NCBI RefSeq assembly: GCF_014645315.1
Contig: NZ_BMLQ01000001.1
Span: 553,665 to 617,664 of the forward strand
DNA length: 64,000 bases
DNA from: Citricoccus zhacaiensis
GTDB lineage: Bacteria; Actinomycetota; Actinomycetes; Actinomycetales; Micrococcaceae
Direction: 5' to 3'
Of this stretch, positions 29,949 through 35,132 are shown piece by piece. Position numbers and translations under genes: made by a program. The notes beneath the pieces were generated by a model. That model saw only the letters and a program-made list of their open reading frames with translations, ran no database searches and was not told the DNA's origin. Position 1 is the stretch's first letter; each line of letters starts with the position of its first letter.

Positions 29949-30824
29949 TCAGGCGCGGGCGGCCAGCACTGCCTCGTAGAGGTCCCGCTTCGGGACGCCG
30001 CGGGCGGCGGCAACGGTGTTCACCGCCTCCTTCAACCGTGTTCCGGAGGCCACCAGGACCTCGACGTCGGCCACCTGGCCGGCCGTGTCCGTGTCCGGTT
30101 CTGCCTCGGTCCCGCCGGTGACGATGACGATCTCACCGCGGATCTCCTTGGAGTTCGCCCACTGCACGAGGTGGTCCAGCGATCCCCGGGCCACCTCCTC
30201 ATGGAGCTTGCTCAGCTCCCGGGCCACGCAGGCGGGCCGGTCGGCGCCGAAGGCGTCCCGCAGTGAGGCCAGGGAGGCGGCCAGCCGATGCGGTGACTCG
30301 AAGAACACCAGGGTGCGGGCGTCCCTCGCCAGTTCGGTCAGCAGGCGGGCCCGCTCCCCCTCCTTGCGAGGCAGAAACCCTTCGAAGGCGAAGCGGTCCG
30401 TCGGCAGCCCGGACAGCGCGAGCGCCGTGGTGACGGCGCTGGGCCCCGGAGCACAGGTGACGTCCACGCCCTCGGCCGCGGCGGTGGACACCAGCCGGTA
30501 ACCGGGATCGGACACCAACGGCATCCCCGCATCGGTGACGACGGCGACGACGGCACCTCCCCGGGCGGCCGCCAACAGTTCCGGGGTGGATTCCCGTTCG
30601 TTGTGCTCGTGGTGGCTGACCACCTTCCCGGTGATCCGCACGCCCAGCCCCTGGGCCAGGTGATGGGCCCGGCGGGTGTCCTCGGCAGCCACGATGTCCG
30701 CGGTCGCCAGCAGATCCTTGAGCCGCTGGGATGCGTCAGCCAGGTTCCCGATCGGCGTGGCTGCCAGCACGATCTGACCGGTGGTGTCGCCGAGCCGGTC
30801 CTCGGGGGTCTGTGTAGGCGCCAT
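29949..30824 (-). CDS. rsmI: 16S rRNA (cytidine(1402)-2'-O)-methyltransferase
   Basis: Tetrapyrrole-methylase-fold RNA methyltransferase, 291 aa, acting on C1402 in the decoding centre. Diagnostic motifs: LAATPIGNLADASQR at the start, AEDTRRAHHL, VTDAGMPLVSDPGYRL, and the central GFLPRKEGER and FFESPHRL. The C-terminal RsmI HTH-like segment ends GVPKRDLYEAVLAARA. In actinobacteria rsmI commonly lies divergent from the protein mannosyltransferase gene; here about 4.5 kb with the zinc unit and CNNM genes separates them. Confidence 0.94.
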   Translation of the reverse strand: MAPTQTPEDRLGDTTGQIVLAATPIGNLADASQRLKDLLATADIVAAEDTRRAHHLAQGLGVRITGKVVSHHEHNERESTPELLAAARGGAVVAVVTDAGMPLVSDPGYRLVSTAAAEGVDVTCAPGPSAVTTALALSGLPTDRFAFEGFLPRKEGERARLLTELARDARTLVFFESPHRLAASLASLRDAFGADRPACVARELSKLHEEVARGSLDHLVQWANSKEIRGEIVIVTGGTEAEPDTDTAGQVADVEVLVASGTRLKEAVNTVAAARGVPKRDLYEAVLAARA

Positions 30825-30859: not shown

Positions 30860-30893
30860 CCCGTCAGGGCTGACTCGCCTCAGCCCTGACGGG
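30860..30893 (-). terminator. Terminator of the CobW-bL36 unit
   Basis: A perfect 14-bp stem (CCCGTCAGGGCTGA and its complement) with a 6-base loop spans the bL36 stop codon and separates it from rsmI. No U-run follows. The stem strength and position suggest that the zinc-response transcript ends here. Confidence 0.65.
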
Positions 30894-31002
30894 CCTTCAT
30901 CCGAGGGTTCTTCTTGTTGATGACGAACGTGCGCCCGCGCCGGCGGACCACCTGTGCGCCGGGGACCTTCTTCAGTGCCCGCAGTGAATTCCGTACTTTC
31001 AT
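30880..31002 (-). CDS. rpmJ: 50S ribosomal protein L36, zinc-free paralogue
   Basis: A 40-aa bL36 too short for most gene callers: [20 protein letters not shown], then [20 protein letters not shown]. The four zinc-binding Cys/His positions of the standard form are absent, which marks the C-minus paralogue made in zinc shortage to free zinc from ribosomes. GGAGG precedes the ATG by 6 bases. The ATG overlaps the stop of the CobW-like gene (ATGA, 30999-31002), so both belong to one unit under the Zur-like box at 32175. Confidence 0.93.
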
Positions 31003-32159
31003 GATGTCCTCCGGGAATCGATGTCATGGGTGGTGTCCAGGCCGAACGGGTCGGCCAATGCGGTGAAACCGCCCTTCATCTCGGCCTCTGTCAGCTGACA
31101 GTCGGTGAGAAGTCGGATGATCTCGGCAGCGTCGAGGCCTTCCCCGGTTGCGGAGATCACGGTGCTGGGGTGGCCTGCCTCCGCCCCGGCGCGGACGGTG
31201 GTGACCGGGTCTTCAAGGCCTGATGGATCCTGCGGGTGACCGTGCAGATAGGCGGGCCAGGGGCCCGCATTCTCCAGCCATACGCGGGGACCGGCTCCCC
31301 GCAGCAGGATCCGGCACTCCGGTGCCGGCGCCATCCAGAGTTGGCCATGCAGACGGCAGCATCCCTGGGCGAGAGATCGCAGTGCGTGATGGAAGCGCTC
31401 TGGGTGCAACGGGCGGTGGAACCGGTGGACGACGGTGGTGAACGGAGAATCCGTCGCGATCCCGGCGCAGGATGGCGGCCCACTCACATCGGTGCTCCGT
31501 TCCGACGCAGTCACTCCTGGGTGGACAGGACCGCCTGAGTGGGCAGGACTGATGTCGGTTGCCCGTTCGGTGATCCGCGCATGCGGGGCCAGCTCCCGGA
31601 GCAGCTGCAGGCCGCGAGCACTGGCAGGCGGGTCGGCCGGGACCACGTCGGGGTCCGCCAGCAGCACAGAGTCAACAGAGGCCAGTTCCGCCATGAGGAA
31701 CTCACCGGGGGTTCTCTCATCGTCAGGCAGGGCGAGGTAGCCGGACTCGAAGAGCGTATGGCGGTCCCAGATCTGGTCCTCGACCGCACCCGGCGAGCAG
31801 GCCAGCACCACGGCGTTGAGCACCAGTGACCGGCGCACGCCGCTGTTCAGTGCCCGCACCACGGCGGCCGCCGGCAGCGCGGGAGGCAGACCGAGAATGA
31901 GGTGCTCCACGCCGGCTACCTTCGAGCGCCGCACGGAGGGCTCGATGTCCAACCGGATGGCGCAGCTGGGGCAGGGATGTTCCAGTCGAGTCTCTCCCCG
32001 CTGTGGGGGCGCCCCGGGCCGGATGGTTCGGCGCACCAGGAGGCCGTCCTCCAAGAGGTCATGCAGCATCAGCACGGCTTCGGGATAGGCAGCGGCCAAC
32101 ATGTCGCAGGCCTGTTGACGGCATAGGGCATCGAGGGAGCTGACGACGGTGAGGTGCAT
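30999..32159 (-). CDS. CobW/COG0523-like putative zinc metallochaperone with degenerate P-loop
   Basis: 386-aa relative of CobW-family G3E GTPases. The order of elements is familiar: N-terminal beta strand ([12 protein letters not shown]), a cysteine motif [11 protein letters not shown] in place of the usual Cys-x-x-Cys metal site, a CobW C-terminal domain with [20 protein letters not shown]. Where a Walker A (GxxGxGKT) is expected, the sequence reads [15 protein letters not shown], with no Gly or Lys, so ordinary GTP binding is doubtful. It lies 15 bases downstream of a Zur-like palindrome and overlaps zinc-free bL36, so a role in zinc supply is inferred. I prefer ATG 32159 to the TTG at 32165. 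Confidence 0.75.
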
Positions 32160-32174
32160 GACCAACAGGCTACA

Positions 32175-32189
32175 TGAGAATCATTCTCA
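32175..32189 (-). promoter_or_regulatory. Zur-like box upstream of the CobW-bL36 unit
   Basis: TGAGAATCATTCTCA is a perfect 15-bp palindrome of the Fur/Zur type, close to the actinobacterial Zur consensus (TGAnAATnATTnTCA), 15 bases before the CobW-like ATG. Repression by zinc-loaded Zur would switch on both genes in zinc shortage. Zur rather than Fur is inferred from the zinc-free bL36. Confidence 0.75.
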
Positions 32190-32736: not shown

Positions 32737-32760
32737 GCCACCCGGGATCTACCGGGTGGC
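32737..32760 (-). terminator. Stem-loop at the end of the CNNM pair
   Basis: A perfect 9-bp inverted repeat (GCCACCCGG / CCGGGTGGC, 6-base loop) spans the stop codon of the downstream CNNM gene. A second weaker stem (GCGGACC/GGTCCGC) is at 32663-32690. Together they probably end the CNNM transcript. Confidence 0.5.
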
Positions 32761-33786
32761 ACGGCTGTCATCACGGATCTGACCGACGAGTTCCTCCAGC
32801 ATGTCCTCGAGGGTCACGACGCCGTAAGGGTGCCCGGACTCGTCCACGGCCAGGGCGAGGTGCGCCCCGTCGCGCTGCATGCGGCGCAGGGACGATTGCA
32901 GGTGGTCCTCCACGTGCAGACGCGGCAGCTGCCGCACCAGACGGTCCGGCACCGGCACGGTACGCGCCGCCGGGTCCAGTCCCAGCAGGTCCTTGACGTG
33001 GATGTACCCGTTCAGGCTCCCGTCCTCCGCCTGGACGGGGAACCGTGAGTAGCCGTTCGCCGCGACCTTCTCGATCTGCTCCGGCGTGCACCCGGCTGGC
33101 AGGGTGACGACCTCGTGCAACGGAATCACGATGCTCTGAACCGAGCGTTCCTCGAAGGTGAGGGCACCGAGCAGCAGCCGCTCGTCCTGGTGGTCCAGCA
33201 GCCCGCCCTCGCGGGACTCGCCCACCAACCCGGCCACCTCGTCCCGGGTGAAGGTGCTCGCGACCTCGTTCTTGGGCTCCACCTTGAACAGGCGCAGGAT
33301 GCCGTTGCCCATCGCGTTCATGGTCCACAGCAGCGGCTGCAGAGCACGCACGACGACGACCAGCGCCGGGCCCAGGATGAAGGCCATGCGCTCGGGCCCG
33401 GCCAGGGCGATGTTCTTGGGCACCATCTCGCCGAGCACCACGTGGAGGTAGGTCACCAGGGCGTACGCGATGATGTACGCGATGGTGTCGATCATCGTCG
33501 CCGGTATCCCCCAGGCCTCAAAGGGCCCCTGCAGGGCGTAGACGATCATGGGCTTGGTGACGTAGCCCAGGGCCAGGGAGCACACCGTGATCCCCAACTG
33601 TGCCCCGGCCATCATCAGCGAGACGTTCTCGATGGCCCACAGGGTCATCTTGGCTCCGCGTCCGCCCTCCTCGGCCTTCGGCTCCACGATGCTGCGGCGC
33701 GCCGCGATGAGGGAGAACTCGGCACCCACGAAGAAGAAGTTCGCGGCGAGCAGCACGACGGTCAGGGCAATTCCGACGGTATCCAC
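32749..33786 (-). CDS. CNNM/CorB-type membrane protein (DUF21 + CBS pair)
   Basis: 345-aa protein with an N-terminal DUF21/CNNM membrane domain (three to four helices to about residue 140, including the conserved GAQLGITVCSLALG and HVVLGEMVPKNIAL) and two CBS domains (about 205-335). This group is linked to magnesium or cobalt efflux and to hemolysin-like annotation; transport direction cannot be told. The CorC_HlyC domain of longer members is missing here. A GTG start overlaps the stop of the paralogous gene upstream by one base, so both are translated together and may form a heteromer. Confidence 0.88.
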   Translation of the reverse strand: MDTVGIALTVVLLAANFFFVGAEFSLIAARRSIVEPKAEEGGRGAKMTLWAIENVSLMMAGAQLGITVCSLALGYVTKPMIVYALQGPFEAWGIPATMIDTIAYIIAYALVTYLHVVLGEMVPKNIALAGPERMAFILGPALVVVVRALQPLLWTMNAMGNGILRLFKVEPKNEVASTFTRDEVAGLVGESREGGLLDHQDERLLLGALTFEERSVQSIVIPLHEVVTLPAGCTPEQIEKVAANGYSRFPVQAEDGSLNGYIHVKDLLGLDPAARTVPVPDRLVRQLPRLHVEDHLQSSLRRMQRDGAHLALAVDESGHPYGVVTLEDMLEELVGQIRDDSRATR

Positions 33787-35132
33787 TAGCGATCATCCTC
33801 CTGGGACTCGAGGGGCGTTGCGGTGGCCTGGATGCGGGCGATGCGCGCCCCGTCCATGGCCTCCACCGAGAAGGTCACCCGGGCGGCCGGATAGCCGTGG
33901 GCGGACTCGGTTTCCAGCTCGACGCTGTCTCCCACGGTGGCGATGCGGCCGAGGTGCAGGGTGAGCAGGCCGGCGATGGTGTCATACTCGGCGTCCTCTG
34001 CGATGAGGTGTCCCAGCAGTTCGCTGACCTCGTCCGGGCGCAGTGCGCCGTCGAGCGCCCAGGCACCATGTGGCAGCCGCACACTGGTGAGGTCGTCAGG
34101 ATCGTGTTCATCGACCACCTCCCCCACGAGTTCCTCCACGAGGTCCTCGAGGGTGATCAGGCCGGCCACGTCCCCGGTCTCGTCCATCAGGACGGCCATC
34201 TGCAGGCCACCGGCACGCAGGGTGTCCATCAGGTTGTCCAGCTCGATCGTGTCCGGCATCAGGGTGGGCGTCTCCATCACGTCCGAGACCGGCGTGGAGG
34301 CCCGGTCCGCGAAGGGAACAGCCAGACCACGGCGAATGTGGACCAGGCCCTCGACGGCCGATGAGCCCGGCTCCATCACGGGGAACCGCGAGTGGCCGGT
34401 CGTGGCAGCCACCTGCAGCAGGTCCTGGACACTGCTGCCCGGTGCCAGGGTGGTCATCCGGGTGCTCGGGGTCATCGAGTCGTGGGCGCGGCGGGTGCCG
34501 AAGGCGAAGGACCGCTGGATGAGCTCGGCGGTGTCCGCCGGAAGTACGCCCTGCCGGGCCGAGTGCCGCACCAGCACCGTGAGTTCCTCCGGAGAACGGG
34601 CCGAGGCGAGTTCCTCCTGGGGCTCGATGCCGAGCAGTCGCACGATCCGGTTGGCTGTGCCGTTGAAGAACGTCAGCAGGGGCTTGGTGACGGTACTGAA
34701 ACCCCGCTGGAAGCCGACGACGGCCCGTGCGGTCGCCAGCGGACGGGCGATGGCCAGGTTCTTGGGCACCAGCTCGCCGAACACCATGGTCAGGACGGTG
34801 GCCAGGACCAGGGCGAGGGCCACGGAGACCGAGCGTGCCAGTGGTTCGGCCAGGCCGGCGTCCGTCAGGGGGCCGACCACCAGGGCGGCGATGGCCGGTT
34901 CGGCCAGGAACCCGATGCCCAGGTTGGTCAGGGTGATGCCCAACTGAGCTCCGGAGAGCTGCGTGGACAGGGTGTTCATGCCCTTCAGCACACCCGCGGC
35001 CTTCTGATCCCCTCGGGCGACGGCTTCACGGACGTCGTTCTTGTTGACCGTGATCAGGGCGAACTCCGCAGCCACGAAGAGGCCGCAGGCGATGATCAGC
35101 ACGAGGCCGATCAGGATCGAGACTATTTCCAA
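33786..35132 (-). CDS. CNNM/CorB-type membrane protein (DUF21 + CBS + CorC/HlyC domain)
   Basis: 448-aa paralogue of the following gene. DUF21 membrane region (about 1-185; SGAQLGITLTNLGIGFLAEP, FGELVPKNLAIARP), two CBS domains (about 205-335) and a C-terminal CorC_HlyC transporter-associated domain (about 355-440; LDGALRPDEVSELLG, DTIAGLLTLHLGRI). Actinobacteria often carry such a long/short pair. The upstream intergenic region (35133-35406) divides it from the divergent mannosyltransferase gene and holds a 14-bp palindrome. Confidence 0.9.
   Translation of the reverse strand: MEIVSILIGLVLIIACGLFVAAEFALITVNKNDVREAVARGDQKAAGVLKGMNTLSTQLSGAQLGITLTNLGIGFLAEPAIAALVVGPLTDAGLAEPLARSVSVALALVLATVLTMVFGELVPKNLAIARPLATARAVVGFQRGFSTVTKPLLTFFNGTANRIVRLLGIEPQEELASARSPEELTVLVRHSARQGVLPADTAELIQRSFAFGTRRAHDSMTPSTRMTTLAPGSSVQDLLQVAATTGHSRFPVMEPGSSAVEGLVHIRRGLAVPFADRASTPVSDVMETPTLMPDTIELDNLMDTLRAGGLQMAVLMDETGDVAGLITLEDLVEELVGEVVDEHDPDDLTSVRLPHGAWALDGALRPDEVSELLGHLIAEDAEYDTIAGLLTLHLGRIATVGDSVELETESAHGYPAARVTFSVEAMDGARIARIQATATPLESQEDDR

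Follow-up and report, generated by a model that had tools for sequence, protein, structure and literature searches.

A putative Zur-type zinc-response unit encoding a P-loop-less CobW-like protein and a zinc-free bL36

Our analysis supports the presence, in the window (the whole 64-kb stretch of DNA that was analysed), of a compact Zur-type zinc-response unit that encodes zinc-free bL36 together with a CobW-like protein devoid of a P-loop, as indicated by sequence and conservation. As judged from its sequence, the CobW-like protein belongs with the P-loop-less COG0523-like proteins that include MRF/Rv0106, and on balance we consider the locus to be a Zur-repressed low-zinc unit in which an MRF-like ribosome factor is paired with zinc-free bL36. 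The sequence-only reading had seen in the protein an unusual metallochaperone that works independently of GTP. This is not the best reading, since loss of the P-loop is widespread and the studied relative, MRF/Rv0106, is a ribosome-hibernation recruiting factor. In the order of the minus strand, from the box to the closing hairpin, the following features were assigned:

32175–32189, minus strand: Zur-type operator, a 7-1-7 palindrome reading TGAGAATGATTCTCA on the coding strand (by motif, place and conservation)
32167–32172, minus strand: −10-like element TAGCCT, 7 nt before the ATG (TAnnnT conserved among upstream sequences)
30999–32159, minus strand: P-loop-less COG0523/MRF-like protein, 386 aa (CobW_C PF07683, NF047431, Foldseek match to YjiA)
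32115–32138, minus strand: position of the lost P-loop, residues 8–15 SLDALCRQ, with Arg14 at the Lys column (75-row alignment)
31962–31973, minus strand: CPSC, residues 63–66, counterpart of CxCC with the outer cysteines kept (alignment)
31008–31012, minus strand: GGAGG, likely ribosome-binding site of bL36, within the CobW-like gene (sequence)
30880–31002, minus strand: type-B (zinc-free) bL36, 40 aa, with ATGA overlap with the preceding gene (NF002021, PF00444)
30860–30893, minus strand: perfect 14-bp hairpin closing the unit, which is probably a terminator, although it lacks a U tract (pairing, folding)

The open reading frame of the CobW-like protein spans 30999–32165 with a TTG start, and relatives favour the ATG at 32159; the TTG at 32165 is the less likely start. 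The two genes are joined, as had been claimed, by an ATGA in which the stop codon of the CobW-like gene overlaps the start codon of bL36, and the GGAGG 5 nt before the bL36 ATG is probably bL36's own site. The bL36 protein contains neither Cys nor His, in agreement with its earlier designation as zinc-free, and matches NF002021 with 74.8 bits (cut-off 70) and PF00444 with 63.6 bits, which identifies it as type B. The 14-bp terminator stem described for the end of the unit stood as a stem, with 14/14 pairs between 30860–30873 and 30880–30893, a 6-nt loop and a folding z of −3.2. Its role as a terminator was not borne out to the same degree and is plausible only, because the hairpin has no U tract, is absent from the list produced by a terminator scan and has its 5′ arm inside the bL36 gene. 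Immediately beyond the unit, an rsmI-like gene (TP_methylase; RsmI_C under its cut-off) follows at window positions 29949–30824 in the same orientation; such a gene also adjoins the unit in the same-genus loci L104 and L106.

The perfect Zur-type palindrome reported upstream of the two genes was recovered as the 15-bp sequence TGAGAATCATTCTCA, the first base of which is located 30 nt upstream of the ATG at 32159. It resembles the Streptomyces coelicolor consensus TGAAAATGATTTTCA as given in the accessible part of PMC2823685. Within the 64-kb window it is the only match with at most two mismatches to TGANAATNATTNTCA (0.12 expected; a match in 11/100 shuffles). At no more than one mismatch, the 3.69-Mb genome holds two matches and none to a reversed control pattern, and the second match precedes a second copy of the CobW-like/bL36 unit. 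A box with up to two mismatches is found within 120 nt of the start in 31/31 Micrococcaceae-family loci, and in 29 of these the best box begins 27–30 nt before the ATG. Between box and gene, TAnnnT occurs 6–8 nt before the ATG in 34/34 distinct family upstream sequences, the two copies of this genome included (shuffled control: mean 2.8, largest 8). Due to this position and to the fact that box and −10 element abut, we suggest a leaderless transcript that Zur would block; leaderless Zur targets have been reported in C. glutamicum (accessible part of PMC2823685). In the wider class, boxes with at most two mismatches were seen at only 38/67 P-loop-less loci and also at 4/7 canonical ones, which weighs against our reading of the unit; in many of the box-less P-loop-less loci a bL31 gene of the same orientation precedes the gene.

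That the CobW-like protein lacks the GxxGxGKT loop could be confirmed. Relatives that possess a GTPase domain carry SGFLGAGKTT at this place; the window protein shows SLDALCRQ in the P-loop columns, and LGLPPALPA and ADPD stand at the columns of the Walker-B Glu and of NKxD; the G1, G3 and G4 motifs are all replaced in the alignment of the window protein. The PF02492 profile gave no match at this gene. The Cys-x2-Cys motif pointed out earlier is indeed kept, as CPSC at residues 63–66, which departs from the CxCC of COG0523. An intact P-loop upstream of the chosen start was considered and rejected, because just 7 in-frame codons precede the start and a P-loop regex found no match in the 37 best-matching loci (L003, L020–L055), one of which, L024, is a fragment without N-terminus; the promoter element in 34/34 upstream sequences argues against it as well. 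CxxC is kept in 36 of these 37 loci, the exception being the fragment. The regex match in L111 lies at residue 195 and was regarded as chance.

Alignment of actinobacterial homologues, proposed as a check by the sequence-only reading, revealed that the P-loop loss is common to many relatives. The alignment comprises 75 rows and leaves out the fragment L024, the duplicates L055 and L075, L030, and open reading frames below 70 bits. All of its 7 canonical rows carry GFLGAGKT and CICC (7/7), and L073b, a piece cut by the locus end, groups with them. The P-loop Lys is found in 0/67 non-canonical rows and Arg stands at the Lys column in 39/67, where it may serve as a new ligand or RNA contact. Both outer cysteines are kept in 66/67 of these rows, with L002 as the exception. 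Seven family proteins all share the His-Asp pair H33 and D34 as well as R14, which occupies the column of the P-loop Lys, and the His, which is Asn in canonical proteins, is kept in 61/67 of the wider rows; contacts of H33, D34 and R14 with zinc or RNA are possible.

Pfam recognizes in the window protein CobW_C (PF07683, 42.4 bits) alone. An AlphaFold2 model calculated from 6 sequences has a pLDDT of 61, with block means of 67–93 over residues 1–130. Foldseek returned three matches up to E 0.001, all of them YjiA (best E 2.3e-8), with TM values of just 0.29–0.38 on this pLDDT 61 model. The protein thus has a CobW_C domain and, by the YjiA match, a COG0523 fold. In the model the first helix starts at residue 11, within the former P-loop, and would presumably fill the phosphate site. 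The search for solved relatives by sequence gave none at E < 0.001, and the VIA-align matches to SRP GTPases (Z 10.6) and YjiA (Z 9.5) were not taken as kinship. With the COG0523/G3E GTPases YjiA, YciC, CobW and ZigA the window protein shares the fold, CobW_C and the outer cysteines of CxCC; it differs from them in the replaced P-loop, Walker-B Glu and NKxD and in Ser as third residue of CxCC. The COG0523 fold, the outer Cys pair in 66/67 rows, the His in place of canonical Asn in 61/67 and the Zur-type control would also suit a GTP-independent zinc carrier or scavenger that would supply essential enzymes during starvation with zinc drawn from free pools or from displaced zinc-binding bL36. 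We consider such a carrier unlikely, as G1, G3 and G4, the nucleotide-binding motifs of COG0523, are all replaced, the association in the genomes is with ribosomal genes, and the ribosome is the target of the only relative studied.

The kinship with MRF, on which our preferred reading of an MRF-like ribosome factor builds, was examined from both sides. Among the NCBIfam models, the window protein matches best the MRF equivalog NF047431, aligned over the full length (residues 3–379 on model positions 4–397 of 402) with 100.4 bits, well under the curated cut-off of 375 bits. NF047431 matches all 7 family proteins of alignment A4. Since seven fetched canonical P-loop proteins reach 121–146 bits on the same model and so outscore the window protein, the NF047431 score by itself is no proof that the window protein should be placed with MRF. 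The window-side profile A2 reverses this order and ranks P-loop-less rows above canonical GTPases, with 103 bits for the best non-own row, 45–77 bits for the 16 MRF rows and 27–42 bits for the three canonical rows among those listed. NCBIfam names MRF a GTPase; this name may mislead, because the P-loop Lys is present in none of the 16 rows over the NF047431 cut-off.

Among 296 genomes of the class, 96 match A2 and 101 match NF047431; canonical GTPases account for a few of the A2 matches and also occur among those to NF047431. The NF047431 cut-off is passed by 16 genomes, not including that of the window. For the genomes searched, the terms class and MRF group refer to kinship labels together with model scores. 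Six named relatives, 47–54% identical, are from Arthrobacter and Pseudarthrobacter, and the family of the window is therefore taken as Micrococcaceae. Profile A3 matches 70 of 295 genomes of this family, some matches crossing one stop, and the best 30 of the A3 family loci were examined. In a phylogenetic tree, the canonical rows and L073b form one side of a branch with 100/100 support; the window copies and Micrococcaceae rows form a second group and the MRF rows a third. A long branch (2.07) leads to the window clade, and with supports of 83/66 and 95/78 at the deep forks its position relative to MRF is tentative. Because L002 and the canonical rows fall within the remaining rows at weak forks, a single loss of the P-loop among the relatives can be called possible only.

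The MRF proteins themselves are described in the accessible parts of the literature. Rv0106 is Zur-repressed, is without both GTPase motifs and has CXSC (Haas 2009, PMC2770081), and MSMEG_6069 is MRF and belongs to the Zur and zinc regulons (PMC7174638). MRF recruits the hibernation protein Mpy in a zinc-gated manner, and its turnover is zinc- and Clp-dependent (review, PMC13418864). With MSMEG_6069 and Rv0106 the window protein shares homology over the full length, absence of the P-loop, CxxC at the place of CxCC, a Zur-type box and adjoining zinc-free ribosomal genes. In contrast to MRF, it scores only about 100 bits against the cut-off of 375 and belongs to a long-branch clade, and its unit has bL36 alone as neighbour, a gene overlap and a leaderless-type promoter.

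The ribosomal neighbourhood extends beyond the window. In the family, bL36 follows in 31/31 loci examined, the two copies of this genome included (29 by regex, L106 by eye and L114 frame-broken). Overlap or abutment of the gene with bL36 was counted automatically in 12/31 loci and seen by eye in L106. Neighbours in the wider sample were scored with ribosomal-gene motifs that we take to be diagnostic, one example of each of which Pfam confirmed for L33, L31, L28, S18, L32 and L36. This set of 67 P-loop-less loci includes L030 and omits L002 and thus differs from the 67 aligned rows. Around 63/67 of them a zinc-free-type ribosomal gene motif lies in the stretch examined, and it is absent from the stretches of L048, L074, L086 and L095; canonical loci have bL32 only, in 4/7. 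The neighbours vary by lineage and comprise bL31, bL33, bL28, bS18, bL32 and bL36. The ribosomal neighbours across the class sample and the overlap or abutment with bL36 could also be explained by an assembly or exchange factor without a role in hibernation, through which ribosomes already present would acquire zinc-free ribosomal proteins such as, here, bL36. This seems to us somewhat less probable again than the zinc carrier, because neighbours that differ by lineage leave no single client in common and the work on MRF, in the parts accessible, indicates Mpy recruitment.

Further genes of the genome fit an MRF-like factor. A second complete unit on contig C12 encodes a CobW-like protein 69% identical to that of the window and bL36, again with an overlap. 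The zinc-binding bL36 (CxxC, Cys, His) adjoins an infA-like gene, and both zinc-free bL36 copies occur in addition. For bL31, bL33 and bS18 there is one genome match each; these three, together with bS14 and bL28 beside bL33, are by reading without zinc ligands. Among the ribosomal proteins checked, bL36 alone was therefore seen both with and without zinc ligands, and this would account for the compactness of the unit. Systems listed in the accessible part of PMC2823685 likewise place a zinc-free bL36 under a Zur-type box and have a zinc-binding copy at another site; compared with those listed there, the window unit holds bL36 only. The genome further encodes one long HPF and a Fur-family protein, taken as Zur, whose gene adjoins znu-like genes. 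The loss of the GTPase motifs and the patchy presence (70/295 family genomes) might suggest a functionless, decaying GTPase carried along with bL36, which is hardly tenable in view of the Cys pair in 66/67 rows, matches running from model position 1 to at least 356 of 377 in all 31 loci scored, two divergent copies retained in the genome and a promoter element in 34/34 upstream sequences.

For the Zur-repressed unit with an MRF-like ribosome factor we propose the following mechanism. Zinc-loaded Zur would occupy the palindrome that abuts the −10 element and so keep the leaderless promoter closed. A fall in zinc would open it, and one message would give two proteins. Zinc-free bL36 could then replace zinc-binding bL36 in the ribosome. 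The MRF-like protein, presumably a COG0523 fold with decayed GTPase motifs and the outer two cysteines kept, is most likely a zinc-gated ribosome factor by analogy with mycobacterial MRF; zinc on its Cys pair might render it inactive or unstable, and in the zinc-free state it might help the long HPF to bind the remodelled ribosomes. The analysis itself shows how the unit is built, the kinship of the protein, its loss of motifs, the conservation of box and promoter element and the proximity to ribosomal genes of zinc-free type. We infer that Zur binds, where transcription starts, that CPSC binds zinc, that bL36 is exchanged and that HPF is recruited, and put HPF recruitment no higher because the NF047431 score (100 against 375) is below that of true P-loop GTPases. 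The unit is real and conserved and of a known kind, and we infer its function from one studied relative.

For mycobacteria, both the P-loop-less condition and the link to the low-zinc ribosome are known according to the accessible parts of the cited work. New here are the breadth of both in the class sample and the bL36-only, leaderless-type form in the family of the window, taken as Micrococcaceae. Our literature search found no experiment on this lineage, nor did it find a description of an MRF-like unit in Micrococcaceae, although such work may exist. We tentatively consider it possible, although somewhat short of probable, that P-loop-less COG0523-like proteins provide zinc-gated, GTP-independent control of hibernation across much of the Actinobacteria, and that here, with bL36 as last zinc switch, the system has shrunk to the MRF-like protein and bL36, kept in two copies. 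Should the wider group share the action of MRF, hibernation of ribosomes triggered by zinc would extend from mycobacteria to many other actinobacteria. The two-gene unit of Arthrobacter would, if true, offer a simple system for how a motif-less GTPase fold senses zinc and acts on ribosomes.

Three CobW_C proteins are encoded in the genome, none with a P-loop by reading. The third (contig C9, L002 832–1887) has neither P-loop nor CxxC, lies on a long branch and is without a nearby Zur-type box (best 5 mismatches); its neighbours by eye are the apparent end of a TctA-like permease gene and an alcohol-dehydrogenase-like gene. A genome search with PF02492 for a canonical CobW GTPase gave 32 weak or partial matches (best E 0.0017), with 3 frames passing the cut-off once pieces are summed. 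The znuA-like gene has a weak box with 2 mismatches 28 nt upstream, which is not beyond chance (matches in 32/200 shuffles of the same stretch, 16%) and likewise weighs against our reading of the unit. Upstream of the unit, at window positions 32749–35132, lies a gene pair for CBS/CNNM-like membrane proteins, named by eye, and elsewhere in this genome a paralogous pair, 41–42% identical, precedes the znuA-like gene (L129 2423–4893).
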